Shown here: positions 9,086 through 64,000 of the stretch, piece by piece
Numbering within the stretch: the first letter of the stretch is position 1
Layout of the letters: the number at the start of each line of letters is the position of its first letter
Source of the DNA: Ecytonucleospora hepatopenaei
Taxonomy: Eukaryota > Microsporidia > Enterocytozoonidae
Length of the DNA stretch: 64,000 nucleotides
Assembly (NCBI GenBank): GCA_026692725.1
Contig: JAPMUG010000003.1
Location: forward strand, 281,075-345,074
Direction of reading: 5' to 3'
The notes under the pieces: model-generated
Databases searched by the model: none
What the model saw: the letters and a program-made list of their open reading frames with translations, nothing else
Told to the model about the DNA's origin: nothing
Made by a program: the position numbers and the translations under genes

Positions 9086-9784
9086 ATGCAGCAAAACCTG
9101 ACTTCAAAAAATAATTATAAACCAGGGAGAAAATCTCTTTTTATGCTTGCTACACTTTGTACACAGATTTTACACCAAAGACAAGTGGTAAGAAAACAGC
9201 TGCAAAGAGCACAAATTTTAATTTCAGATCCGATGCAAAAAACGTCAAGAAAAAATTTTTATCCATCAAATGATAGCCAAAATTTTTTTCAAAATCTTTC
9301 ACCTTACGAAGAAAGAAAAAACAGAGAAAAAGAGGAAATAGAAAAGACAGCAAAAAGATTTATAAAAAAATTAAAAATAACAAAAAGTAAACTATTAGAA
9401 AAAGAAAATTACAAAAACATTGACTTTAGAAAAGCCCAAAAATCTGTTAAGGAACATGAAATAAACAAAGGACCATGGACAGAAGAGGAAGACAATTTAC
9501 TTAGAGAATTGGTTGAATTTTTTGGTCCTCGTAATTGGTCTTACATTAGCAACATTATACGTACGCGAATAGGAAAGCAGTGTCGGGAAAGGTGGCACAA
9601 TCACCTGGATCCAACCATAAATAAAAAATCTTTTTCAGATGATGAAAAACAGAAGATTCTACAATTACATAAATTGCATGGAAATAAGTGGAGTTTGATA
9701 GCGATGGAATTGCCAGGAAGAACAGACAATTCAGTAAAAAATTTTTGGTATTCACAGTGTAAGAAAGGATCAAAGATGAATTAA
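9086..9784 (+). CDS. R2R3 Myb-type DNA-binding protein
   Basis: A transcription factor with two Myb repeats at the C-terminal end. R2 spans residues 129-175 with Trp131, 151 and 170 and the recognition helix GKQCRERWHNHLDP. R3 spans about 181-222 with Phe183 replacing the first Trp, then Trp202 and Trp221, and the recognition segment GRTDNSVKNFW. Both recognition helices closely match c-Myb type proteins, so an AAC-core site is plausible. The N-terminal 120 residues are basic and coil-like. A CCCC run 6 nt before the ATG supports the start. Confidence 0.92.
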   Translation: MQQNLTSKNNYKPGRKSLFMLATLCTQILHQRQVVRKQLQRAQILISDPMQKTSRKNFYPSNDSQNFFQNLSPYEERKNREKEEIEKTAKRFIKKLKITKSKLLEKENYKNIDFRKAQKSVKEHEINKGPWTEEEDNLLRELVEFFGPRNWSYISNIIRTRIGKQCRERWHNHLDPTINKKSFSDDEKQKILQLHKLHGNKWSLIAMELPGRTDNSVKNFWYSQCKKGSKMN

Positions 9785-17000: not shown

Positions 17001-17560
17001 TGCAATAAATTAAAATATATTAATAATAATTAATATATAATATATAATATATAATGTTTGTTATTTATATTAAATTGTATTGTATTGTATTGTATTGTAT
17101 TGTATTGTATTGTATTGTATTGTATTGTATTGTATTGTATTGTATTGTATTGTATTGTATTGTATTGTATTGTATTGTATTGTATTGTATTGTATTGTAT
17201 TGTATTGTATTGTATTGTATTGTATTGTATTGTATTGTATTGTATTGTATTGTATTGTATTGTATTGTATTGTATTGTATTGTATTGTATTGTATTGTAT
17301 TGTATTGTATTGTATTGTATTGTATTGTATTGTATTGTTATATTTATATTTATGTTTTTATTTTTATTTTTATTTTTATTTTTATCTTATATGGGTTAAA
17401 TATTTTATTTATATTTTAAACTATTAGTTTTATTTTATACTATTAGTTATATAATATATTTATATTAGTTATATTATTATATAATTTATATTTTGTATTA
17501 TAAATTAAATAATATCAAGTATTGTTATAAAATATAAAAATTAGTGCAAAATATTCCCCC
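17001..17560. other. Divergent TAF5/RPB7 promoter region filled by microsatellite
   Basis: 560 bp between two divergent general transcription genes. Nearly half of it is a pure pentamer array, followed by a T-rich hexamer stretch (17341-17390) and AT-rich sequence. The long reading frames through the array are artefacts of the repeat. Confidence 0.7.
17074..17338. repeat. ATTGT pentanucleotide microsatellite, about 53 copies
   Basis: Roughly 265 bp of uninterrupted ATTGT repeats with no visible substitutions. It starts about 75 bp from the TAF5 start and ends about 220 bp from the RPB7 start. The purity suggests ongoing slippage. Confidence 0.95.
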
Positions 17561-29078: not shown

Positions 29079-30977
29079 ATGGCAAGACAAAATAGAGTCT
29101 CAAAATACGTCCAATTAGAAGCAGAATCAAGCGATGAAGATATTGACTCTTCTATTGACAGCCAAGATATGGATGGGTTAGATGGATTTGTTGAACCAGA
29201 TTATAGGGCAGCCCCACGCAATTTATATGAAGATAAAATAAGGGATTTGGAAGCTAGATATGCTAGACCAGGAACAGATGAAGAGGATGAAGATGTTTTT
29301 GAAAAAACTTTGGAAGCACCGTGCCAAGCCAAACTTCTCCCTCTGCCAAGCGATCCTGTTTTATTTTTATGCAGAGTAAAATTTGGAAAGGAAAAGACAG
29401 TTGCCGCTAATATCATAGAAGCAGCAAAGGAGATACCAGATGTAACAGCTGTACTTCAAAAAGATGGTTTAAAAGGATACATTTATATAGAAGCATTTAA
29501 AAAAACTGCAGTAGATGAAGCTGTTTATAATGTTAAGAATGTGTATAAAAGCAGAATTACTGCAATTAACCTTTCTGAAATGGTGGATGTCATGAACTGT
29601 AACAAAGACTACAATGTTGGTGATTATGCACGCATGAAGTCAGGTAAATATAGGGGAGATTTGGTGCAGATTATAGAGAATTTTGATGATTGCTGCCAAA
29701 TAAAAGCAATACCGCGTATTAACAACAACAAGAAGCTATTTGACCCAGAAGAGTTTAGAAATGAAACACAATACAATAATGGTGGGTATTATTTTAACAG
29801 GGATTATTATAAAGATGGATATCTTATAAAATCAGTGCTCAAAACAAATTTGGAATTTGACGTAACGCCTACTTTTGAAGAGCTGAAGGATCTTTCAGGC
29901 GAAAATGTTGTTCATCTCAATGACCAAGTGGTCGTTACAAAGGGAGAACTTGCAAATTTTAAAGGTAAAATTGTAAATGTTTCTGGAAATACGTGCACAG
30001 TCACAAACAAAGAGAAAACATTTGATGTAGATATTGGTCTTCTTAAGAGGCACGTTGAAGTTGGTGAAAATTATTCATACCAAGGTAATAATGGGATGGT
30101 GTTAAAAGTTAACACAGATGGGTTGGTCGTCTTGGGTATAAAAAACATGACAGAGGAGGTAACGGTAAATGTGACAGATTTGGAAGCACCTGTCGCACAA
30201 AAAATAGCACCACCCAAAAAATTTGCCTATGCCAGAAATAGAGCAGATCCACTTGTTAACAAAAAAGTGTCAATAGTTGCAGGAGAATACAAAGGAATGG
30301 TAGGCAGAGTTCAGGGAGTAAACAAAGACACGTATAGAGTGCAACTGAGCACAACATTTGAAAGCATTAATGCGTTTAAAAATGACCTGAGAGTTATTGA
30401 GCCTGTGTATACATATGCATATACGTCAACACCCGGATATAAGACACCTGGAAAAACACCAGGGTATACAACACCCGGATATGCTACGCCTGGATACAAA
30501 ACACCAGGCTATACAACTCCAGGATACAAAACACCGGGATATACTACGCCTGGGTATAAAACACCTGGTTATACTGAGCCAATGATGGAAGAAGAGGTTG
30601 AAGAAGGTAAGGCAGTAATGAGTGATTTGGATATTTTACTGGTAGGTGTAAATGTGTATGTAAATGGTGTATTGAAAACTGTGGAGAGAATTTCAGGTGA
30701 AAAGTGTTTTGCTGGAGAAGAGTCTTTTTACATTAGCGAAATACAAAATTATGATGAGGAACAGCTGAAAATGGCAAGACTAAGCAGTGGGGAAACAAAA
30801 AGCATAATGGCAGACAAGCCCAAGAACAAGTTTGAGACAGTATTTGTTTTTAAGGGAGAACATGCTAATAAAGTTGGAACAGTAACAGAGTATAAAGAAT
30901 CAATTGCAAAAATACAGTGTATGACAGGAGAGTGTATTAGAGTTGATGTTAGTGATTTAACAACAAAAAGGAAATAA
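29079..30977 (+). CDS. SPT5: Transcription elongation factor SPT5
   Basis: A 632-residue DSIF/SPT4-SPT5 subunit. An acidic N-terminus is followed by the NGN domain (about residues 90-165, FLCRVKFGKEKTVAANII...) that binds SPT4 and Pol II, then KOW domains at about 185-230, 275-330 and 385-435. A CTR of about ten TPGY-type units (TPGYKTPGY...) lies at about 445-500. Another KOW-like domain follows the CTR (FVFKGEHANKVGTVTEY), the order seen in metazoan SPT5 and not in budding yeast. A CCC motif lies 14 nt upstream of the ATG. Confidence 0.96.
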   Translation: MARQNRVSKYVQLEAESSDEDIDSSIDSQDMDGLDGFVEPDYRAAPRNLYEDKIRDLEARYARPGTDEEDEDVFEKTLEAPCQAKLLPLPSDPVLFLCRVKFGKEKTVAANIIEAAKEIPDVTAVLQKDGLKGYIYIEAFKKTAVDEAVYNVKNVYKSRITAINLSEMVDVMNCNKDYNVGDYARMKSGKYRGDLVQIIENFDDCCQIKAIPRINNNKKLFDPEEFRNETQYNNGGYYFNRDYYKDGYLIKSVLKTNLEFDVTPTFEELKDLSGENVVHLNDQVVVTKGELANFKGKIVNVSGNTCTVTNKEKTFDVDIGLLKRHVEVGENYSYQGNNGMVLKVNTDGLVVLGIKNMTEEVTVNVTDLEAPVAQKIAPPKKFAYARNRADPLVNKKVSIVAGEYKGMVGRVQGVNKDTYRVQLSTTFESINAFKNDLRVIEPVYTYAYTSTPGYKTPGKTPGYTTPGYATPGYKTPGYTTPGYKTPGYTTPGYKTPGYTEPMMEEEVEEGKAVMSDLDILLVGVNVYVNGVLKTVERISGEKCFAGEESFYISEIQNYDEEQLKMARLSSGETKSIMADKPKNKFETVFVFKGEHANKVGTVTEYKESIAKIQCMTGECIRVDVSDLTTKRK

Positions 30978-42463: not shown

Positions 42464-43582
42464 TCAACAATATAATTCTTCTTTTAATAAAATTGTATTT
42501 TGTTCTTTTTTATCATAAATTTTGTTAAAGTCTTTAAATGGTTTAAGGTTATTAATGTATTTAACATTTACATCCAACATAAAACTCTTTATATCTTGTT
42601 TAGTACATTCAATGTGTTTTAGTTTATGTTTACCATAAAAATGATCACGCCTTATACGAAATGTACATTTTTTCTTATACTTATTTATTTCATCCCAATC
42701 TTTATATATGCTTTCTAGTTCATTTAATGTAACATTGTTTTGACAAAAAGATGTTTTTTTAAGAATACTTAAATTTTTAAGTCGATTAAAATATTTTTTA
42801 AATCCAATCATTTTGTTATAAAAAGAAAAATCAATGGAAAATATTATTTTTACATTATCCAAAGAAGTTTCTAATAATTCTTTAAACTCATCAGTAAGAG
42901 TAAAACCCTGTATAATATGTGCAACAATAACATGCATGTACAGGTCTGTCACCATCATTTTATATTTTAAATTTTCCCCAACTTTTTTGTAATTTATAAT
43001 CACAAACTTATGATACTTATGTGCTGCAACAATTAGATTTGTAATGGAATTTAAATAGATACTAAAATATAAATTCCTATATTCTAACAAATCTGCTCTT
43101 ATATTTGAATTTTTCCAATAGGTAAATATAGTACTTTCGTGAAAAAAATTATTAATGTTTAAATTAGTAAGCATTTCAAAGTTATACAAAGGTAAAAGTT
43201 CTTTTACTAGAAAATGATAAATATTTGAACATAAAGCTTTTGAACCTATTACAAAATCACAGAAGCTCGGTTTCTTTAAGCTAACAAAAATACTTTTGAT
43301 AATTTGTGAAGATTCGTGGTGCTTTGGACCAGTCCATATTCTTGAGAATATATTATAAAGAAATATATAGTCCGTATTTTTTAAATTGTAGTTTTTAAAT
43401 AAACTTCTCATTTCTTTAAAAAATTCTTCATTATCAATCTCTAAAAATGAATTGGTATTATGTAAATTATAAAAAGTATTATGTATATTTGTATGGTTTG
43501 TTTTATTTTCTCTACTAACATCATTAGAATTATAAATTATATTATAAAATAATAATAAATTTATAAATTTTAAATAAATCAT
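42464..43582 (-). CDS. Secreted-type paralogous family protein, copy 1
   Basis: A 372-residue protein of an unrecognised family that also occurs at 49.8-51.0 kb (broken) and 56.4-57.6 kb. The N-terminus is a signal peptide-like helix (MIYLKFINLLLFYNIIYN). The body is helical with the family-shared blocks SKALCS, FFHEST, NSITNLIVAAHKYHKFV, LKYKM, IFSIDF, YNKMIGFKKYF, YKDWDEIN and a conserved Cys-containing end (KHIEC). Divergence from the other two copies is substantial. A CCC motif lies about 13 nt before the ATG. It is probably a host-interface protein by location and export signal, which is inference. Confidence 0.75.
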   Translation of the reverse strand: MIYLKFINLLLFYNIIYNSNDVSRENKTNHTNIHNTFYNLHNTNSFLEIDNEEFFKEMRSLFKNYNLKNTDYIFLYNIFSRIWTGPKHHESSQIIKSIFVSLKKPSFCDFVIGSKALCSNIYHFLVKELLPLYNFEMLTNLNINNFFHESTIFTYWKNSNIRADLLEYRNLYFSIYLNSITNLIVAAHKYHKFVIINYKKVGENLKYKMMVTDLYMHVIVAHIIQGFTLTDEFKELLETSLDNVKIIFSIDFSFYNKMIGFKKYFNRLKNLSILKKTSFCQNNVTLNELESIYKDWDEINKYKKKCTFRIRRDHFYGKHKLKHIECTKQDIKSFMLDVNVKYINNLKPFKDFNKIYDKKEQNTILLKEELYC

Positions 43583-49814: not shown

Positions 49815-50980
49815 TTAAAATTCTATTTCTTCTTTTACAATATCTATATCTTCTTCTTGTTTTATTGATATATTGTCATTTATATTAGTAATATCTTTAT
49901 CACCTTCTTCCTTTATAAATATTTTATTATCATCATTGTTTTTTGTTATATTTTTAAGGTTATTTTTATATACATCATTTATATCTTTCATAAACTTTTT
50001 TATATCATGTTTACTACAATCAATATGTTTTAACTTATATTTATCACAAAACTGTTTACGCTTTACACGTAAAATATATTTGTTTTTAAGTTTATTTATT
50101 TCATCCCAATCTTTATATTTCTTTTCTAGTTCATTATTTGTAATAATATCTGTAACATTATTTTGTATAAAATTCATTTCTCCCAATATACAAAAGTTTT
50201 CTAATTGTATAAAATATTTTTTAAACCTTATCATTTTGTTATATAATTTAAAATCAATAGAAAATATTAACTTTATCTTATTTAAAGATGAGTTTAAAAA
50301 TTCTTTAAGTTCATCAAATAAAACACAACTTTGTAAAATATGTGCAACACTGACATGCACTATTAAGTCAGTTGCAACCATTTTAAATTTTAATTTTTCT
50401 TCAACCTTTTTATAATTTTTTAGTACAAATTTATGATATTTATGTGTAGCTAAAATTAGATTAGTAATTGAATTTATAAAAACATTAAAGTATAATTTTT
50501 TAAAATCTAAATGATCTGCTTTAAGATGCGTGGTACTCCAAAAACTTGCAACAGTGCTTTTATGGAAAAAATCATTAACATCTAAGTGAGTATTCATTTC
50601 TTTATAATGGTATAAGTTCCTTTTTTACAAAATAATAAATTGTTGAACATAAAGCTTTGGAACATAATGTAAATTTGTTAAAATCAGGTTTTTCTAATTT
50701 TTTAAAAATATTTTTGATTGTTATAACATATTTCATGTGCATTGGACCAGACCAGTTTATGAAAAATAGTCTCCAAACAAATAATTTTCCAAAAACTTCT
50801 TTGTTATGACCTTTAAATAATTCTTCCATATCTTTAAAATATTCATTATCATTATCTAAAACTGTTTCTGTTGTATTGTTTAATTCTTGTTCTACACAAT
50901 TATGTAAATGTGAATTGGTAAGGTTGTATTCAAATTCTTTTTTTTATAATAATAGCATTATAAATAATATTAGAAAAAAA
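49815..50980 (-). pseudogene. Broken paralogous family gene, copy 2
   Basis: Closely related to the intact copy at 56375-57574 along most of its length, but disrupted. Reading from the 5' side, the signal-peptide start is missing and is replaced at 50990 by a dispersed element. A homopolymer at about 50938-50945 has eight As where the intact copy has seven, shifting frame into a stop. Near 50602-50610 five bases are missing compared with copy 3, giving an immediate TAA after KKELIPL. The remaining frames (50602-50829 and 49815-50597) are still open, so the damage is recent. Confidence 0.85.
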
Positions 50981-52653: not shown

Positions 52654-53814
52654 TTTTGGTTATTTGTTCTGATTTTTACTTATTAAACTTTTTTAATTTT
52701 AATATTGCTATGATTTATCATATATTTTTTCAACAACGATAAAATTATTATGTTAGGCTAAACAAAGTTCATATCCATAAGTAAACTATTAGCCTTATCA
52801 CAATATGATAACAATTTTGATATATAATGTTTTTATCATAAAAATTGTAATCATACCTATTTATATATTAGATATGGAGTAAATTAATGCAAAGTATTTT
52901 AATCATTAATTAATTAATATAAAATTAGTAAAGTAGTTTACTAAATAATAAGGAAAAAAGTTAATAAAAAAGTTGTTGTTTTGAATATAATGAACTAAAG
53001 TTTTTGACAAATAAGATTTTTAGATATAAGATACGTATAATACTTGATTTATAATCTGATTTTGATATATATAATTGTATTTCACATTTATTTAGGCTAA
53101 ACATGATTATTATAATGCATCAAAATATACTATTTTTTATAAGGTTAATTTTTTTTCAATTATTCTAATATAGTAAACTAACACGTTTTAAAATTCTTTT
53201 ATTACCGTATATAATTAAATTTAAAATATTTTAAATACACTTTTATGATATATGAATGTGATTTTTTAATTATAGATAAATATATTTTTACAAAACATTT
53301 GTATTAAATCTATTAAATATAATTTATTTAACATATAACTTTTTACATATATTTTAAGATATCATAAAAAATGATATAATAATATTAGAGAATTTCTTTC
53401 CATTTTGTTTATACAAACTAATAAGATATAGTCTTGCTCTTTGTTTATCAAATAAACTTAAATTAAAAATATAAACGTTTTATATAGTTTAGCTAATCCT
53501 TTGAGTTATAAGTAACTATTAATAAATTTCAACAGAACCTGATAAATAATCTGACAAACATAACATTGTCACACAACAAAAATATTACATATATTTTTAA
53601 TAAGTATTCATTTTTAATTTTTTAGTAAACCTCTCTATTTATTATATTATATTTTTTATTATTTATTTTTTATTATTTATTATTTATTATATTTTATATT
53701 GTGTTTTTATTGTATTTGTAATTATAAACTAACATAAAAATATTTAAAACATTCCTTTGATAAATCACTTTTTATATTAAAACGTTTTATAATAACATAT
53801 AATATTAAACAACA
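52654..53814. other. Long AT-rich spacer with a weak D-like element
   Basis: 1161 bp with frequent stops on all frames. At 53087-53132 there is a diverged relative of the D element core (TTTATTTAGGCTAAACATGA). Otherwise only AT-rich sequence is seen. Confidence 0.5.
53087..53132 (+). repeat. Weak D-like element
   Basis: Shares TTTATTTAGG-TAAACATGA and a following ATCAAAATATA-like block with the D element, with several mismatches. Confidence 0.45.
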
Positions 53815-55818
53815 TTATGTCCCACATGAATCACCCTTTTTACGTGGATCAGCAACTGCATAAATTTTACCATTTTTTATAGCAACTGCATTTACACTTG
53901 TAAATGATCCTATATTTTCACATTGCATAATATTATGTCCTAGTTCTTTAAGTTTAATTTGCAGTTCAGGACAAAATGATGGTTCAACATAAACAACACT
54001 ATTGAGTTGTTCATGTAGTCTTGGTGCAGATATTGCATTATATAAATTTCTATCTAAATAGTAAAATAAAATTGTTGAGATAATAGATGTAGGTATTTTA
54101 GTACCACCAGCTGCACCTATAAGAAATGTTTCTTCTAATAAACTATTATTATCTAAACTAATATTTTCTAAAATATTATAACTAGTTATATTATTATCTA
54201 ATAAATTTTTAGTATTATTATTTTCTGATATTTTTTCTAATATAGTTGGTGCAGCTGAACTAAATGGTCTTTTATATGGTTCTATTCTATTAAATAAACC
54301 ATTACCTATAATATTATATGCACTTTTTACATTTGGAACTGAAAAGTCATCCATGTGGTTGTTAAATATTATACCTGTTTCTGGATCCATAACTTTTGAA
54401 CCAAATTCTAAATTTATTGTTGTAGTTAGACAAACACAAATATCTTCATGAAATACATTTAGGTGTGTAGTACCATGATCATCCTTGAAAGGTAACATAT
54501 CTGTAAAATAACTTTTATCAATAGGTGAGTCAAAGTTAATTGTTTTGAAATATTTGTTAGCCAATTCTTGAGAAATGAAATTCTGTATTTTAGCATCAGC
54601 TGCATTCAAATTGTAATCATTATTATTAGTATATATATTTTTATCAATATTATTGCTATTTATAGTTTTATTAAGATTATTCTTTAAATTCATAAAAAAT
54701 GGATCTTCTACTTCTCCTCTTCTATAAAACATAAATTTAAATATTTCAATTAAGAAGTGATAAATGTATACATTCTTAGTATCTTTGAGTATTTTAGCAA
54801 AATTGTTTAAATCGTATTTTGACAGAATATTTAGAGCTAATACAATAAATGGACCTGAACTAGGTAAAGAAGTTGTAATAACATTAAACTCTTTAAATGT
54901 TGATTTTAACACACCTCTCTCTTCACACTTATATTCATTTAAATCTTTCAGTGTGATAAACCCATCATTTCTTTTGCTGAATTCTGCTATTTTATTTGCT
55001 ATTTCTCCATTGTAAAAATCTTCAGGGTCTTTGGAAATTTTACGTAAAGTTTTACCAAGGTTTTTACGTATAACAATATCACCTACTTTAATAATTTCAC
55101 CATTTCTAGTAAATATCTCTCTAAATCCTTCATCATTAAGAATATCCTCTTTATTGTTATTTAACTTTCTTATAAGTAATTCTGAAGCAGGAAATCCTTC
55201 TTCACATATTTTTATATTTTCTTCAAATAATTCTTCCCATCTAAGCTTACCATATTTTTTATGTACCTGAGAAAGACCTTTTATTTCACCAGGAACACAT
55301 GCAGACCTAATTGTGTATTGAAGTTCTTTAGGATTATTTATAAAATATTCTTCTGTTACACTACCAGGAGTAGTTTCTCTGAAATCAAAAAATTTAGCAT
55401 CCTTAGTTTTCTTGTCATAAAACAACAAAAAACCACCTCCACCAATACCAGCTGAAAATGAGTTTATAATACCAATGGTGATAGCAGAAGCAATTGCTGC
55501 ATCTACTGCGTTTCCACCTTTTTCTATCATTTTTTGTCCAATCTTAGAAGCAACAGGACATTCAGTATTTATAACATATTTATCATATTCTTTACTTTGT
55601 GAACAATTAACCATTAAACTATTGAAATTAAATAATATTAATTGATTAATTTTTAAACAAACACTTAAATTTATAATTAAAATAATACTTAAAATAATTT
55701 TTAAACTATCACTCAAATAATTACTAAAATTATTTTTTAAATTATTACTAAAAATATTCCTTAAATTATTCCTTAAAATATTTTTAAAATTATTTTTTAG
55801 TTTATGAAAGGGTAACAT
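53815..55818 (-). CDS. Gamma-glutamyltranspeptidase
   Basis: A 667-residue GGT-family Ntn hydrolase that cleaves or transfers the gamma-glutamyl group of glutathione, normally on the outer cell surface. The first 60 residues contain repeated NNLRNIF/NNLKNNF-type units and a membrane anchor at about 40-58, giving type II topology. The large-subunit part shows GGNAVDAAIA and GIGGGGFLLFYD. The autoprocessing Thr450 lies in DDHGTTHLNV, and the small subunit shows TINLEFGSKVMDPETGIIFNNHMDDF, GAAGGTK and APRLHEQ. An Asn-rich insert interrupts the large subunit, and another the small subunit. It looks catalytically complete. Confidence 0.93.
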   Translation of the reverse strand: MLPFHKLKNNFKNILRNNLRNIFSNNLKNNFSNYLSDSLKIILSIILIINLSVCLKINQLILFNFNSLMVNCSQSKEYDKYVINTECPVASKIGQKMIEKGGNAVDAAIASAITIGIINSFSAGIGGGGFLLFYDKKTKDAKFFDFRETTPGSVTEEYFINNPKELQYTIRSACVPGEIKGLSQVHKKYGKLRWEELFEENIKICEEGFPASELLIRKLNNNKEDILNDEGFREIFTRNGEIIKVGDIVIRKNLGKTLRKISKDPEDFYNGEIANKIAEFSKRNDGFITLKDLNEYKCEERGVLKSTFKEFNVITTSLPSSGPFIVLALNILSKYDLNNFAKILKDTKNVYIYHFLIEIFKFMFYRRGEVEDPFFMNLKNNLNKTINSNNIDKNIYTNNNDYNLNAADAKIQNFISQELANKYFKTINFDSPIDKSYFTDMLPFKDDHGTTHLNVFHEDICVCLTTTINLEFGSKVMDPETGIIFNNHMDDFSVPNVKSAYNIIGNGLFNRIEPYKRPFSSAAPTILEKISENNNTKNLLDNNITSYNILENISLDNNSLLEETFLIGAAGGTKIPTSIISTILFYYLDRNLYNAISAPRLHEQLNSVVYVEPSFCPELQIKLKELGHNIMQCENIGSFTSVNAVAIKNGKIYAVADPRKKGDSCGT

Positions 55819-56374
55819 TTGTTTATAACTGTTTCATTGAAAACTTAAATATCAATTTTTGTTTATTTCTCTATTTTTATTTAAAATAAACACATATCTA
55901 ATTGTTAATACCTTTAATCTTTTATAATTTTGTAGATTATTATTATAACAAATTATGTAGAGATTGTCATCATTTTAAATAAACTAATTTATACTAATTT
56001 GACTTTAACATTATTTTTTAAAACTATTTTTTAAAATTTATTTATAGGTATAATAAAAGTTAGTAATCAATAAAAAATATTTAAAAGCAATACATTTACT
56101 TATTAATAAAAATATTTTCATTTATATGCTTATAATGTTTTAAAAATATTTAATCTTATTTTATTACATCAGAAACTCAATGTATTTTATATTGTTTATA
56201 AAAATTAAATTACACCTACATATAAATATACTTGATTTAAAAATTACTTGTAATAAAAAATAATAGAAAATACATTAAACTAAACTCTTATAAAATATTT
56301 TAACTTACTAAAAAATTAACTATTTTTCAATATACTGTAAAAGGTTATAATATTTTTATAAAAAACTTATTATA
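55819..56374. other. AT-rich intergenic region
   Basis: 556 bp of AT-rich sequence between the GGT gene and family copy 3. No feature is supported. Confidence 0.4.
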
Positions 56375-57574
56375 TTAACAATCTAATTCTTCTTTAACAA
56401 TATCTATATCAACTTCTTGTTTTATTGAAATATTTTCATTTATATTAGTAATATTTACATCACTTTCTTCCTTAATAAATATTTTATTATCATCATTACT
56501 TTTTGTTATATTTTTAAGGTTATTTTTATACATATCATTTACATCTTGCATAAATTTTTTTATTTCATGTTTACTACAATCAATATATTTTAACTTATAT
56601 TTATCACAAAACTGTTTACGTTTTACACGTAAAATATATTTGTTTTTAAGTTTATTTATTTCATCCCAATCTTTATATATCTTTTCTAGTTCATTAGCTG
56701 TAACATTATCAGTAGCAATATTTTGTATAAAATCCATTTCTTCCATTATACATAAATTTTCTAATTCTTTAAAGTATTTTTTAAACTTTATCATTTTGTT
56801 ATACAATGTAAAGTCTATAGAAAATATTAACTTTATCTTATCTAAAGATGTGCTCAAAAATTCTTTAAATTCATCAAATAAAACAAAACTTTGTAAAATG
56901 TGTGCAACACTGACATGTAATATTATGTCAGTTGCAACCATTTTAAATTTTAATTTTTCTTCAACCTTTTTGTAATTTTCTAATGCAAATTTATGATACT
57001 TATGTGCAGCTAAAATTAGATTAGTAATTGAATTTATAAAAACATTAAAGTACAATTTTTTAAAATTTAAATGATCTACTTTATGATGTGTGGTACTCCA
57101 AAAACTTGCAACAGTGCTTTTATGGAAAAAATCATTAACATCTAAATGGTTATTCATTTCCGTATTAATTAATGGTATAAGTTCCTTTTTTACAAAATAA
57201 TAAATTGTTGAACATAAAGCTTTGGAACATAATGTAAATTTGTTAAAATCAGGTTTTTCTAATTTTTTAAAAATATTTTTGATTGTTATAACATATTTCA
57301 TGTGCATTGGACCAGACCAGTTTATGAAAAATAGTCTCCAAACAAATAATTTTCCAAAAACTTCTTTGTTATGACCTTTAAATAATTCTTCCATATCCTT
57401 AAAATATTCATCTTCATTATCTAAAAGTGTTTCTGTTGTATTGTTCAATTCTTTTTCTACACTATTGTGTAAATGTGAATTAGTAAGATTGTATTCATTT
57501 TCTTTTTTTATAATAATAGCATTATAAATAACATTAGAAAAATATAAAAAATTTAAAAATTTTAAATAAATCAT
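56375..57574 (-). CDS. Secreted-type paralogous family protein, copy 3
   Basis: A 399-residue intact relative of the broken copy at 49815-50980 and a more distant relative of copy 1. It has a signal peptide-like N-terminus (MIYLKFLNFLYFSNVIYN), an acidic segment, then the helical family body with NWSGPMHMKYV, SKALCSTIYYF, DVNDFFHKSTVASFW, NSITNLILAAHKYHKF, IFSIDFTLYNKM and YKDWDEINKLKNKY. An acidic tail has two Ile-Lys-Glu/Gln-Glu motifs. A CCC motif lies 1 nt before the ATG. Function unknown; export is inferred from the N-terminus. Confidence 0.78.
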   Translation of the reverse strand: MIYLKFLNFLYFSNVIYNAIIIKKENEYNLTNSHLHNSVEKELNNTTETLLDNEDEYFKDMEELFKGHNKEVFGKLFVWRLFFINWSGPMHMKYVITIKNIFKKLEKPDFNKFTLCSKALCSTIYYFVKKELIPLINTEMNNHLDVNDFFHKSTVASFWSTTHHKVDHLNFKKLYFNVFINSITNLILAAHKYHKFALENYKKVEEKLKFKMVATDIILHVSVAHILQSFVLFDEFKEFLSTSLDKIKLIFSIDFTLYNKMIKFKKYFKELENLCIMEEMDFIQNIATDNVTANELEKIYKDWDEINKLKNKYILRVKRKQFCDKYKLKYIDCSKHEIKKFMQDVNDMYKNNLKNITKSNDDNKIFIKEESDVNITNINENISIKQEVDIDIVKEELDC

Positions 57575-58822
57575 AGGGTTTATTTTTTATAGAGTTTAAA
57601 AAATATAAAATATCATCTAATTAGAAAATCAATATATATTTAACATTAATAACAATGTATAGAAAAGACATAGTAATAAAGTGTATTCTTTTAAATAAAT
57701 ATATTCATTAAATTATTTAACCTTAAAAGTTTAAAAAAATAAAAATATTTATATTTTTACATACATATAATGTAAGAAAAATATTTATTAAACTTTTAAA
57801 CATATTTTTATTATATAGCAATTTATTAGTAATAGAAAAACAACAAAAACTTATTTATTTATTCATAAAAATAAAAAAGATTTTTAATAAATTTTATTTT
57901 ATACAAAGGAAAAGAACAAGGTTTATACAAAAAGTAAAAATAATCATAATGTTGGTATATTATGACATCTTGATATATTTTAATACTTTTTACACCCATC
58001 ATGTTTTACCTAAATAAAGTTTTAACTACACTCATATTCAACACATAAAATAACAAATAGAAGCAAATATGTAAAAAAAATTTTATCACTATATGGTTAA
58101 GAAACAAAGATATAAATAAAAAATACGTTTTTATTACTAATACACATGATACTATTAAAATTTTGAATTATTATAAAATGAACCATATAACTTAATGTAT
58201 AGTAAAATAGTATCATTTAAATCAATATTATGTATAGGTAAAATTTCAAGGGCAAAAAGTAATGTAAACTTTTTAAAAGTTAAATTTTATTAGTAAAAAG
58301 TTACAAAAATAATTTCAACTTTTTAGGCAAAAATATTTTATAAAGCACAATTAAAACAAGAAAAAGGTAAAAAACTAACTTAAACATAATTTTATCAAAT
58401 TATTTAACACCTCTTTTATTAGATAACATGTTTTTTAAATAAAATTGTTTTTTTATTGTTGTATGCCACATCCTGACAAAATTTACAAATAATAGGTGTT
58501 TAAAATAAACTTGTGTATTTCTAAGTTTTAGCATTTTTATGTAAGTACAAGCATTATAGCATTCTTTTATATTTAATTAGTTTGAAAAGTTTATTTAAAC
58601 TTTACAGCTTAAAAAACAAGTATTAGATAAAGTCATCCGTAGTTATTTATTCAGTGATAAGTTTTTAATCAAAATAGAGTTTATTAATAAGTAGTGTTAA
58701 AAAAATAAGAACCATAATTTTGATAGGTTAAAAAATGTTATTTAGTAAATAAAAAAAGGTTTAATAAATAAATCTCTAATTTTCAAACTAATATTTATTT
58801 TGTCTCCTTTAACATGAAAGTC
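57575..58822. other. AT-rich region containing D element copy 2
   Basis: About 1.25 kb without a supported gene. The inverted D element copy is at 57951-58044. The rest is AT-rich with many stops. Confidence 0.5.
57951..58044 (-). repeat. 94-bp dispersed element D, copy 2
   Basis: Reverse complement of 50990-51083 with one mismatch over 94 bp. It lies 377 bp upstream of the start of family copy 3. Confidence 0.95.
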
Positions 58823-59140
58823 AATAATGTAATAATGTAATAATGTAATAATGTAATAATGTAATAATGTAATAATGTAATAATGTAATAATGTAATAAT
58901 GTAATAATGTAATAATGTAATAATGTAATAATGTAATAATGTAATAATGTAATAATGTAATAATGTAATAATGTAATAATGTAATAATGTAATAATGTAA
59001 TAATGTAATAATGTAATAATGTAATAATGTAATAATGTAATAATGTAATAATGTAATAATGTAATAATGTAATAATGTAATAATGTAATAATGTAATAAT
59101 GTAATAATGTAATAATGTAATAATGTAATAATGTAATAAT
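58823..59140. repeat. 8-bp satellite AATAATGT, about 40 copies
   Basis: About 318 bp of uninterrupted AATAATGT units. The minus-strand frame through it is open only because 24 bp encodes a stop-free octapeptide; it is not a gene. Confidence 0.95.
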
Positions 59141-59240
59141 TTCTGCGTTGGAAAATCCAATAAATTTTTAATTATCATTGAATATATTTTTAAGTTATCA
59201 TTGATTATTTATGGAAGGAAAATCTTTTGTTTGTTTTTAA

Positions 59241-59996
59241 ATGTGGTTTTTTGTACTCTAAATTTTATTTTTAAAATAAAATATGAGCATAATAATGCAG
59301 AAACAGAAGATATATGGGAAGAACTTGATAAATAAAGGGATAATAATGAAATAAAGATAAATGACCTTATTGACAGTTAATTTTCAACTAACAATAAAAT
59401 GGTAACTTACAATAAAATGGTATAACACAATAAACAATTCTAATAATAGTTTAAGTAATAGTGGAAAAGTAGAAAAAATATTATTTGATAAAACAGAAAG
59501 AACAATTCATAAACTACTAAACAACTTTATAAGTTTATTTTAAAATATAATTTATTATTTTAAATTAAAAGAATATTTTATAAAATTAGTTGAAGAAAAA
59601 TACTATGCATTAGATTTGAATACAGATGATGCTTTAAATTTAGTAGCAGATTTTTTTGAATTTTCAATAACATTAAATAGATAAATCAAATAGAATTGTA
59701 TATAGAAAAACAATAATAAATAATAAATGTAGTAGAAAAAGAGACAAATTATGAAGTAATTGAAAATGTATTAATGAATTTGAATTTTTTGAAAAATGCA
59801 TTTTAAGATAATAATGTTAAACATTTCAAATTACACTTTAAAGATATGCAAAACAAAATAATCGAGAAGAGATTAAAAAACATAAATTTAAGTAAAGAAG
59901 CAAATAAAGAGAAGACAGTAAATGATTTATGCATCGATAGTTTAGCAGTAACCATAGGAGTACATAATTGTATTTTTAAGGTAGAGAGCACATAAG
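59241..59996 (+). pseudogene. Decayed secreted-type gene
   Basis: A coding-like remnant with multiple lesions. A hydrophobic start (MWFFVL, stop, ILFLK) begins at 59241. An acidic piece follows at 59285 (AETEDIWEELDK, stop). A segment at 59406-59682 reads through one internal TAA (KVEKILFDKTERTIHKLL... then KLVEEKYYALDLNTDDALNL). A frame change then leads to 59732-59994 with one internal TAA (NYEVIENVLMNL..., MQNKIIEKRLKNINLSKE). Codon-like composition and frame continuity across stops argue for a dead gene. The family is not recognised. Confidence 0.65.
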
Positions 59997-61140
59997 TGTT
60001 TATTAGAAAATATATAGAAAGAAGTATTTAATGTCACTAAGAAAAAAATAATTTTATCAAACAATTTTATAACTATATATAATTAGTTAGTAGCTAACAA
60101 TAATAACAAATTTAAAATAGTATTACTACTATTACTTTTATAAAATATTTTGTAATACACAACTATACTATATATTAAAAACTAAAAACTTTTTATATGT
60201 TTTGTAAATAAATTGTATAATAAATAAAATTATTTGTGTATATTATATATTAGTAGTTTTAAGATATTTTATGTTAAAAAACAATAAAAAACAAAATATA
60301 ATAGATATAAAAAACACGTAGGTAATAAAGGAAAAGAAAAAAGATGAAATAAAAGTATATATAGAATGCAATGATATTGAAAATTGAATAGTTTTAGGTA
60401 GGTGCATTTTTCAATTTTTTGTATTTGTTAGTATACCCTTTGTTGTAAATATTGTTAATAAAATTACTAATAATTATTTTTTAACCCTTATAGTAAAATA
60501 AAATATAACTAAAATAATAGTAAAATCATAATTTAAATGTATTAATATAAGTGTAAAACATAATATAAACAATAGTAAATAAATTATAAATATATAAAAT
60601 GCATTAGTTTAGTATATTTTATTAAATAAATTATTATTTTAAGAAATTTAGAAAAAAATAAAGAAATATTCTAATAAAATATAATTAAAGGTATGAATGA
60701 TAAAGTTAATATGTATTTAAATAGTATTAATAATTATAAAAAGATACTTTATTAACTATTTACATGTTTTTAATAAATAAATTATAAAAATATATACATT
60801 TATTAGGAAATATTATAAAATTTATAAAAAAATATAAATATTTTAAAAGATAATAAAATTTAAGAGAAAAACAATGAGTGTATTAAATAAAAAAAATATA
60901 AAGTAAAAAAAATAAAAAAACTAAAATAAATACTTAAATATATTTACATATAAAAATTATAAAACTATTAATAAATTTATAAACCTATTAATAAAATGAT
61001 AATAATAAAATAGAAAAAATAGTAGAAATAATTACAAAAAGTTTAGTTTAATTTAACAGTACCTAAAAAACATTATAATACTATTTTATGAATAGTAAAA
61101 GTAAAAACAAAGAAAAGAAAATACGTGAAAACAAAAATTA
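59997..61140. other. Degenerate AT-rich subtelomeric sequence
   Basis: About 1.1 kb of very AT-rich sequence. One short coding-like scrap is visible at about 60321-60388 (KEKKKDEIKVYIECNDIEN, stop). No intact gene or RNA is supported. Confidence 0.5.
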
Positions 61141-61153
61141 GATTATGATTAGT

Positions 61154-61203
61154 AGCGCGAGAAAACTTGACGGAGTGTAACGAAGTTAAAGTTTTGGAGC
61201 GCT
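61154..61203. other. Imperfect hairpin bordering the 30-bp satellite
   Basis: Arms 61154-61168 (AGCGCGAGAAAACTT) and 61189-61203 (AAGTTTTGGAGCGCT) pair except for a 3-nt internal mismatch, with a 20-nt loop. The sequence is GC-richer than its surroundings. The right arm ends on the GCT that opens the first satellite unit. Confidence 0.7.
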
Positions 61204-62070
61204 ATTGACTAGATATCTTACCTACGGTAAGCTATTGACTAGATATCTTACCTACGGTAAGCTATTGACTAGATATCTTACCTACGGTAAGCTATTGACT
61301 AGATATCTTACCTACGGTAAGCTATTGACTAGATATCTTACCTACGGTAAGCTATTGACTAGATATCTTACCTACGGTAAGCTATTGACTAGATATCTTA
61401 CCTACGGTAAGCTATTGACTAGATATCTTACCTACGGTAAGCTATTGACTAGATATCTTACCTACGGTAAGCTATTGACTAGATATCTTACCTACGGTAA
61501 GCTATTGACTAGATATCTTACCTACGGTAAGCTATTGACTAGATATCTTACCTACGGTAAGCTATTGACTAGATATCTTACCTACGGTAAGCTATTGACT
61601 AGATATCTTACCTACGGTAAGCTATTGACTAGATATCTTACCTACGGTAAGCTATTGACTAGATATCTTACCTACGGTAAGCTATTGACTAGATATCTTA
61701 CCTACGGTAAGCTATTGACTAGATATCTTACCTACGGTAAGCTATTGACTAGATATCTTACCTACGGTAAGCTATTGACTAGATATCTTACCTACGGTAA
61801 GCTATTGACTAGATATCTTACCTACGGTAAGCTATTGACTAGATATCTTACCTACGGTAAGCTATTGACTAGATATCTTACCTACGGTAAGCTATTGACT
61901 AGATATCTTACCTACGGTAAGCTATTGACTAGATATCTTACCTACGGTAAGCTATTGACTAGATATCTTACCTACGGTAAGCTATTGACTAGATATCTTA
62001 CCTACGGTAAGCTATTGACTAGATATCTTACCTACGGTAAGCTATTGACTAGATATCTTACCTACGGTAA
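61201..62070. repeat. 30-bp subtelomeric satellite, 29 identical copies
   Basis: Twenty-nine head-to-tail copies of a 30-bp unit with no visible sequence difference. Each unit contains the palindrome AGATATCT and the inverted repeat CTTACC-TAC-GGTAAG (6-bp stem, 3-nt loop). One frame is open throughout (LTRYLTYGKL per unit) but has no ATG and is not called as a gene. The last unit runs directly into TTAG repeats. Confidence 0.97.
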
Positions 62071-62271
62071 GTTAGTTAGTTAGTTTAGTTAGTTAGTTTA
62101 GTTAGTTAGTTTAGTTAGTTTAGTTAGTTTAGTTAGTTTAGTTAGTTTAGTTAGTGTTTAGTTAAGGTTAGTTAGTTAGTTTAGTTAGTTTAGTTAGTTA
62201 GTTTAGTTAGTTAGTTAGTTTAGTTAGTTAGTTAGTTTAGTTAGTTAGTTAGTTTAGTTAGTTTAGTTAGT

Positions 62272-62302
<31 letters not shown>

Positions 62303-62405
62303 AGTTAGTTTAGTTAGTTAGTTAGTTAGTTAGTTTAGTTAGTTTAGTTAGTTTAGTTAGTTAGTTTAGTTTAGTTAGTTTAGTTTAGTTAGTTAGTTAG
62401 TTAGT

Positions 62406-62445
<40 letters not shown>

Positions 62446-62533
62446 GTTAGTTAGTTAGTTTAGTTTAGTTAGTTAGTTAGTTTAGTTAGTTTAGTTAGTT
62501 AGTTTAGTTAGTTAGTTTAGTTAGTTAGTTAGT

Positions 62534-62564
<31 letters not shown>

Positions 62565-62609
62565 AGTTAGTTAGTTAGTTTAGTTAGTTAGTTAGTTTAG
62601 TTAGTTAGT

Positions 62610-62640
<31 letters not shown>

Positions 62641-62665
62641 AGTTAGTTTAGTTAGTTTAGTTAGT

Positions 62666-62745
<80 letters not shown>

Positions 62746-63339
62746 AGTTAGTTAGTTTAGTTAGTTAGTTAGTTTAGTTTAGTTAGTTTAGTTAGTTAGT
62801 TTAGTTAGTTTAGTTAGTTAGTTAGTTTAGTTAGTTAGTTAGTTTAGTTTAGTTAGTTAGTTAGTTAGTTTAGTTAGTTAGTTAGTTTAGTTAGTTAGTT
62901 AGTTTAGTTAGTTTAGTTAGTTAGTTAGTTTAGTTAGTTTAGTTAGTTAGTTAGTTTAGTTAGTTAGTTAGTTAGTTAGTTTAGTTTAGTTAGTTAGTTA
63001 GTTTAGTTTAGTTAGTTTAGTTAGTTTAGTTAGTTTAGTTAGTTAGTTAGTTTAGTTAGTTTAGTTTAGTTAGTTAGTTTAGTTAGTTAGTTAGTTTAGT
63101 TAGTTAGTTAGTTTAGTTAGTTTAGTTAGTTAGTTTAGTTTAGTTAGTTTAGTTAGTTTAGTTTAGTTAGTTTAGTTAGTTAGTTAGTTTAGTTAGTTAG
63201 TTAGTTTAGTTAGTTTAGTTAGTTAGTTAGTTAGTTTAGTTAGTTAGTTTAGTTAGTTTAGTTAGTTAGTTAGTTTAGTTAGTTAGTTAGTTTAGTTTAG
63301 TTAGTTTAGTTAGTTAGTTAGTTTAGTTAGTTAGTTAGT

Positions 63340-63370
<31 letters not shown>

Positions 63371-63373
63371 AGT

Positions 63374-63441
<68 letters not shown>

Positions 63442-64000
63442 AGTTAGTTAGTTTAGTTTAGTTAGTTTAGTTAGTTTAGTTTAGTTTAGTTAGTTAGTTT
63501 AGTTTAGTTAGTTTAGTTAGTTAGTTTAGTTTAGTTAGTTAGTTTAGTTAGTTAGTTTAGTTAGTTAGTTAGTTAGTTAGTTTAGTTAGTTAGTTTAGTT
63601 AGTTAGTTTAGTTAGTTAGTTAGTTTAGTTAGTTTAGTTAGTTAGTTAGTTTAGTTAGTTAGTTAGTTTAGTTAGTTAGTTTAGTTAGTTAGTTTAGTTA
63701 GTTAGTTAGTTAGTTAGTTTAGTTAGTTAGTTTAGTTAGTTAGTTAGTTTAGTTTAGTTAGTTTAGTTAGTTAGTTAGTTTAGTTAGTTAGTTAGTTTAG
63801 TTAGTTTAGTTAGTTAGTTAGTTAGTTTAGTTAGTTAGTTTAGTTAGTTTAGTTAGTTAGTAGTTAGTTTAGTTAGTTAGTTTAGTTAGTTAGTTAGTTA
63901 GTTTAGTTAGTTAGTTAGTTTAGTTTAGTTAGTTAGTTTAGTTTAGTTAGTTTAGTTAGTTAGTTTAGTTAGGTTAGTTTAGTTAGTTAGTTAGTTTAGT
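62071..64000 (+). repeat. Irregular TTAG/TTTAG telomere-like array
   Basis: About 1.93 kb composed almost only of TTAG and TTTAG units in irregular order, continuing past the window edge. Rare exceptions are at 62152-62168 (GTGTTTAG and TTAAGG), about 62441 and about 63970 (TTAGG), and 63858 (TAG). The G-bearing strand runs 5' to 3' toward the right, as expected for a right-hand chromosome end. Confidence 0.9.

Follow-up and report, generated by a model that had tools for sequence, protein, structure and literature searches.

Irregular TTAG/TTTAG arrays as probable telomeres of the microsporidian Ecytonucleospora hepatopenaei

Single-G telomere repeats in Enterocytozoonida

Telomeres with a single G per repeat unit have been reported for two members of the Enterocytozoonida. 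Glugoides intestinalis carries TTAG telomeres in a PacBio HiFi assembly (PMC12449221), and TTAG is also the repeat described for Microsporidia sp. MB, a species with a TERT gene in which shelterin and CST components are reported to be lacking (PMC13174016). Elsewhere in the Microsporidia, the described repeats are TTAGG (Encephalitozoon, Ordospora and Vairimorpha) or TTAGGG (Hamiltosporidium and, on one contig, Mitosporidium) (PMC12449221, PMC11592040, PMC10542269, PMC10759460). Nosema muscidifuracis is described as having a composite TAGG/TTAGG telomere (PMC11592040). A search of the open-access literature, with subscription journals outside its scope, found no description of the telomeres of E. 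hepatopenaei or of any of the Enterocytozoonidae, nor did it find a mixture of TTAG and TTTAG.

Here we describe such a mixed array at the end of a 64,000-nucleotide stretch of E. hepatopenaei DNA (hereafter, the window), which spans bases 281,075 to 345,074 of contig C7. With a probability of about 0.85, we regard this array as the right telomere of an E. hepatopenaei chromosome, made as one-G units by conventional telomerase. A preliminary description of the same DNA had stated that fungal and microsporidian telomeres on record generally carry at least two Gs per repeat, a premise that the microsporidian record does not support, given the TTAG repeats of G. intestinalis and Microsporidia sp. 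MB (PMC12449221, PMC13174016). Because TTAG has been published for these two species, we treat one G per unit as a trait of the clade. The single-G telomere was already known in relatives, and what is new here is the irregular mixture of TTAG and TTTAG and its layout.

Layout of the array and subtelomere

The array takes up the final 1929 bases of the window and contains 447 G-ending units followed by one trailing T. The units between 62072 and 64000 comprise 303 TTAG, 139 TTTAG, 2 TTAGG, 1 TTAAGG, 1 TAG and 1 TG, so that TTAG and TTTAG together account for 442 of the 447 (98.9%). This bears out the preliminary description of an irregular T(2–3)AG array oriented as a right telomere. The extent given there (62071 to 64000) was correct at its outer limit but one base too long at the other, for base 62071 is the last G of a neighboring 30-bp satellite. 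Base 345,074 is the final base of contig C7, so the array reaches the contig end and no sequence lies to its right, as the preliminary description would have it for a telomere. The longest pure T(2–3)AG stretch in the array measures 1414 nt, against at most 9 nt elsewhere in the window and a maximum of 34 nt in 20 order-1 resamples of the window array. A single-G array had also been expected to lack ordinary quadruplexes, and the window array indeed contains no GG-based quadruplex motif; among the 21 arrays scanned for this motif, C6L and C10R (L and R stand for left and right contig ends) have one each. These observations indicate that the window array is very probably telomeric rather than an internal satellite. 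The features at this end of the window are:

62072..64000, + strand: probable telomere, an irregular TTAG/TTTAG array with its G strand toward the chromosome end (unit count; contig C7 stops at 64000)
61201..62071, + strand: telomere-associated satellite, 29 exact copies of GCTATTGACTAGATATCTTACCTACGGTAA, directly abutting the telomere
58823..61200, + strand: conserved subtelomeric block that begins with about 40 copies of AATAATGT (matches at 87–100% identity)
56375..57574, − strand: copy of a subtelomeric multigene family, 399 aa, no Pfam match, with relatives on other chromosome ends
53290..58822, no strand assigned: recently shared subtelomere; together with the adjacent block, it matches C8L at 99.8% in a single stretch of 7919 nt

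This layout is the classic order of telomere, telomere-associated repeat and subtelomere. The 30-bp satellite, which the preliminary description does not mention, lies inward of the array in the same orientation at all 20 telomere-like places compared and directly adjoins it at all 19 with a readable junction. The fewest satellite copies, 5.7, stand at C2R and the most, at least 40, at C11R, where the piece starts within the satellite. The 60-bp inner flank of the satellite is visible at 18 places, identical at 17 of them and slightly different at C2R. The repeat unit holds a small inverted repeat (CTTACC-TAC-GGTAAG), and two satellite copies, taken as DNA, have a better fold than the majority of their shuffles (z −2.4, with 3 of 200 shuffles equally good). 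An open reading frame of 292 aa at 61205–62083 proved to be only the satellite translated in frame. Neither the satellite nor the mixed array was found in viral contigs.

The subtelomeric block behind the satellite matches, over part or all of its length, 17 of the 20 other end loci; the three without a match (C2R, C9R and C11R) are pieces with little or no sequence on the inner side of the satellite. The AATAATGT microsatellite at the start of the block (about 40 exact copies, 58823–59140) recurs on other ends. A match of 99.8% to the window, beginning at 54423, was also found at the left end of C5. A gamma-glutamyltranspeptidase gene (PF01019; 53815–55818) lies within the 7.9 kb common to the left end of C8. 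Related copies of the multigene family are located in the window at 42464–43582 and 49815–50597, and two of the three window copies were scanned against Pfam without a match. Across 19 end loci (134,450 bases, reaching 3.5–10 kb inward), no Rfam family scored over its cut-off. The G+C content of the window's 2-kb segments ranges from 15 to 34%. Farther from the end, the window contains a perfect microsatellite of 53 exact copies of ATTGT (17074–17338) and an Spt5 gene (29079–30977) with a TPGY-type motif repeated in the C-terminal part of its product, which we take to resemble the CTR of other Spt5 proteins.

The assembly comprises 13 contigs with 3,094,744 bases (3.09 Mb), and we scanned both ends of all of them for T(1–4)AG(1–2) in both orientations. 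At 17 of the 26 contig ends (right ends of C1, C2, C5, C6, C7, C9, C10, C11, C12 and C13; left ends of C5 to C11), the mixed array extends to the tip and is oriented as a telomere. The possibility raised in the preliminary description, that every contig end carries the array, holds in part: in addition to the 17, a tip array is reached via a fold-back at C2L and C13L, and seven ends have no terminal array (C1L, C3L, C3R, C4L, C4R, C8R and C12L, the very tips of C1L and C4L being unread). An array is located about 15 kb inward of the contig end at C1L, and C4R ends within the 30-bp satellite. The final ~145 nt of the C2R tip are irregular.

We counted 9150 units in 21 arrays (the sum of the individual rows), including 5905 TTAG (64.5%) and 2495 TTTAG (27.3%) as well as the minor units TAG (167), TTAGG (127) and TTTAGG (101). 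This count omits the inner C2R array, the 448-nt C13L tip and the arrays in loci L046 and L047, and takes in satellite letters at some segment edges. The main unit is TTAG, with one G per unit, as in the TTAG-type telomeres of Enterocytozoonida. The arrays depart from the uniform 4-mer of those telomeres in that TTTAG makes up 24–39% of TTAG plus TTTAG in each of them (0.238–0.386 per array; heterogeneity p 5e-4), a proportion to be read with the caveat of read error discussed below. No TTAGG array was present at any readable contig end, and TTAGG, likewise TTTAGG, reached at most 4.5% of the units in any of the 21 arrays. This rules out conventional TTAGG arrays at the readable ends, a finding which the preliminary description had named as one that would overturn a single-G telomere.

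Read error, recombination and unit order

The mixture itself could be an artefact. The true repeat would then be a uniform TTAG, with TTTAG introduced by errors in the basecalling or polishing of nanopore data, a reading that we consider unlikely. The assembly looks nanopore-based, and nanopore miscalling of telomere repeats has been documented, with miscalled strings named in that report that differ from the ones found here (PMC9414165). Several arrays fold back on themselves, and stretches of GGTGGG or CCACCC, superficially like TG(1–3) repeats, grade into TTAG arrays (L026:1336–2440, L014:1890–2500, L046:1430–2560 and L047:1–270). This drift is probably nanopore miscalling, which lowers the trust to be placed in single T-run calls. 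The single G is safer than the T2/T3 mixture because the TTAG of Glugoides comes from a PacBio HiFi assembly. Furthermore, both sister reports give the repeat as plain TTAG, and a word-start search of their main texts returned no instance of TTTAG (PMC12449221, PMC13174016). Past an exactly matching stretch, the inner arrays of C7L and C9L can still be aligned by eye and differ by single Ts and Gs, the single-T differences being of the kind that miscalling would leave.

However, the TTTAG share does not behave as read error would suggest. It is unrelated to array impurity across the 21 arrays (Spearman −0.13, p 0.57) and amounts to 31–35% of TTAG plus TTTAG in the two cleanest of them (C7R and C2L, each about 1% impure). 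The order of the units is also non-random. In the 21 arrays, the probability of TTTAG is 0.178 after TTTAG versus 0.355 after TTAG (chi2 244), and in the window array alone it is 0.147 versus 0.393 (Fisher p 1.3e-7). The T2/T3 mixture rests on this order and on exact mixed stretches across contigs: stretches with six to seven TTTAG units are letter-identical between C9L and C12R (231 nt) and between C6L and C10R (132 nt), an identity to which shared reads and polishing may contribute.

The similarity between arrays is confined to their inner parts. Beside the satellite, C7L, C9L, C11L and C12R are exactly alike over 113–231 nt (C11L with one 5-nt indel), as are C6L and C10R over 132 nt. Only 14–32 nt are common to another seven pairs whose junctions are alike (among C6L, C9R, C10R and C13L, and C5L with C8L), and the remaining pairs share (158 by our own count) no more than 8 nt. 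In the outer arrays, unit strings matched between any two of the 21 over at most 31 units, against 28, 33 and 31 units in three sets of simulated arrays built from the two main units only. The longest repeats within arrays fell inside the simulated range in 20 of the 21; the 27-unit internal repeat of the window array compares with at most 26 units in its own 60 simulations, an excess that is unremarkable among 21 tests. The likeness of the inner arrays, together with an outer order at simulation level, suggests that the inner part was inherited and exchanged between ends and that the outer part was newly made at each end. The private outer order fits renewal by telomerase.

Unit order also has a short-range memory, best described by order 2 according to BIC and by three units according to AIC, and models based on addition words ('45', '54' and the like) outperform independence. 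The order is nearly time-reversible, and we therefore claim no template direction. The avoidance of TTTAG by TTTAG fits the copying of a template of about 2–3 units with variable realignment or stuttering. The preliminary description had attributed the irregular 4/5 order to template copying rather than to decay, and the short-range memory does fit copying better.

Recombination could also maintain the ends, with subtelomeric amplification taking the place of telomerase. The 7.9 kb at 99.8% that C8L has in common with the window end, the inner array parts common to several ends and the variation in satellite copies (from about 6 to at least 40) are all consistent with exchange of this kind. 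A TERT gene is present in the genome, however, and each end has an outer array order of its own, with no more sharing than in simulation, which makes maintenance by recombination very unlikely.

Telomere-like arrays are also found away from contig tips, on C1, C4 and C5. The C1 array adjoins the same 30-bp satellite, as misjoined ends would give, and so would the arrangement at L046 (C5:219000–222400), where the satellite, a TTAG array and an inverted CTAA array follow one another within C5, at 811 kb the largest contig. As misjoins, the C4 cases are less clear-cut, the letters next to them being unread. We interpret the C5 locus at about 219–222 kb as two chromosome ends probably joined tail to tail in the assembly, the other possibility being a real end-to-end fusion. 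The alternative named in the preliminary description, an internal satellite, or equally a subtelomeric one at a chance contig break, could draw on these off-tip arrays and on the one array in 21 (the window's) whose repeat exceeded its simulations. It is nevertheless very unlikely, and we reject it on the grounds of terminal position, polarity and generality across ends: the array is the last sequence of its contig, such arrays terminate 17 of the 26 ends with the polarity of a telomere, the outer arrays have no common blocks beyond simulation and a reversed control pattern gave 0.

Telomerase, capping and related telomeres

Synthesis of one-G units by a conventional telomerase, the reading that we prefer, agrees with the presence of a TERT gene on contig C12. 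Its 850-aa product matches PF12009 (Telomerase_RBD) over the curated cut-off in two scans (41.5 and 36.1 bits) and is 100% identical to EHP00_886 of E. hepatopenaei, which bears the UniRef name telomerase reverse transcriptase. By eye, the protein carries the reverse transcriptase motif C signature as YVDD. Searches for relatives gave the own-species record only, the best TERT match among solved structures had an E of only 0.51 and single-sequence structure prediction reached a mean pLDDT of 32.

A template-word search of the assembly found no telomerase RNA. A gapped template pattern had 222 + 144 matches versus 13 + 18 for its reversed control and, among the 100 matches listed, these were mostly within arrays. 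The composite words CTAAACTAACR (7 sites versus 9 for the reversed control) and CTAACTAAACR (7 versus 2) gave 14 sites, 5 of them outside arrays and none convincing. Three of the five overlap open frames of 125 to 434 codons, and the other two lie in gaps of about 100–200 nt, one beside a tRNA gene; we claim no candidate among them.

In the mechanism that we propose, telomerase would extend the 3' strand in one-G units, using as its template a short RNA sequence related to CUAA and CUAAA. With a template about 2–3 units long, uneven realignment or stuttering would yield TTAG and TTTAG at about 70% and 30%, respectively. Turnover of the outer array would proceed separately on each chromosome. 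The innermost array (as much as about 230 nt) and, inward of it, the 30-bp satellite and the conserved block would be older, and subtelomeric recombination would exchange them between ends. We infer the length of the template, the role of the C12 TERT as the maker of the array and the origin of the T2/T3 difference in synthesis rather than in a read artefact.

Candidates for end binding were sought among known families. Ku gave 0 matches in the assembly, in a search whose only ringing control was bacterial, and core NHEJ proteins including Ku are reported absent from the parasitic lineages analysed by others (PMC12134460). The POT1 family was silent in the assembly and equally in the controls. 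The Myb profile returned six rows, three of them over the cut-off. Two of these are repeats of one R2R3 protein (window 9086–9784), and the third is a single-Myb protein of 360 aa (L042:1180–2262, − strand) that is 100% identical to EHP00_659. The latter has weak matches to solved structures (MYB21, E 0.046; TBF1, E 0.38; Reb1, E 0.87) and is for this reason only a lead as a telomere binder. It is possibly a telomere or Reb1/TBF1-like binder.

We tentatively suggest, as a possibility that leaves considerable doubt, that enterocytozoonid telomerase uses a degenerate one-G template, from which TTAG and TTTAG are written in random order with limited memory. The resulting ends would almost never form ordinary quadruplexes and would have no GG telobox. 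If so, they must be capped in another way, be it through the 30-bp satellite, through a divergent Myb protein or through neither of the two, and without detectable Ku.

The arrays of E. hepatopenaei extend the loss of telomeric G (from TTAGGG to TTAGG to TTAG) to the Enterocytozoonidae and add to it an irregular T2/T3 mixture. Together with the two published TTAG species, they argue that a eukaryotic telomere can do without GG tracts and, with these, without quadruplexes and the usual telobox. They also offer a small genome in which the order of units can reveal how a divergent telomerase uses its template. Furthermore, the telomere and its satellite provide a marker for finishing the assemblies of an economically important shrimp parasite.

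Like G. intestinalis and Microsporidia sp. MB within the Enterocytozoonida, E. hepatopenaei has one G per unit at its chromosome ends. Those two species are described as having plain 4-mer TTAG (PMC12449221, PMC13174016), whereas E. hepatopenaei mixes in about 30% TTTAG. The sequence beside the telomere is a 30-bp satellite in E. hepatopenaei, in contrast to the LINE groups often described in Microsporidia sp. MB. Similarly, rRNA genes are reported to follow the telomere in Encephalitozoon and at many Glugoides ends, whereas none was found in the 19 E. hepatopenaei end loci (3.5–10 kb inward). Encephalitozoon, Ordospora, Vairimorpha, Hamiltosporidium and Mitosporidium have in common with E. 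hepatopenaei short terminal repeats of the telomerase type, but theirs are described with two or three Gs. Nosema muscidifuracis resembles E. hepatopenaei in its irregular mixture of 4-mers and 5-mers, with units one T apart, but differs from it in having two Gs per unit and in belonging to the Nosematida (PMC11592040).
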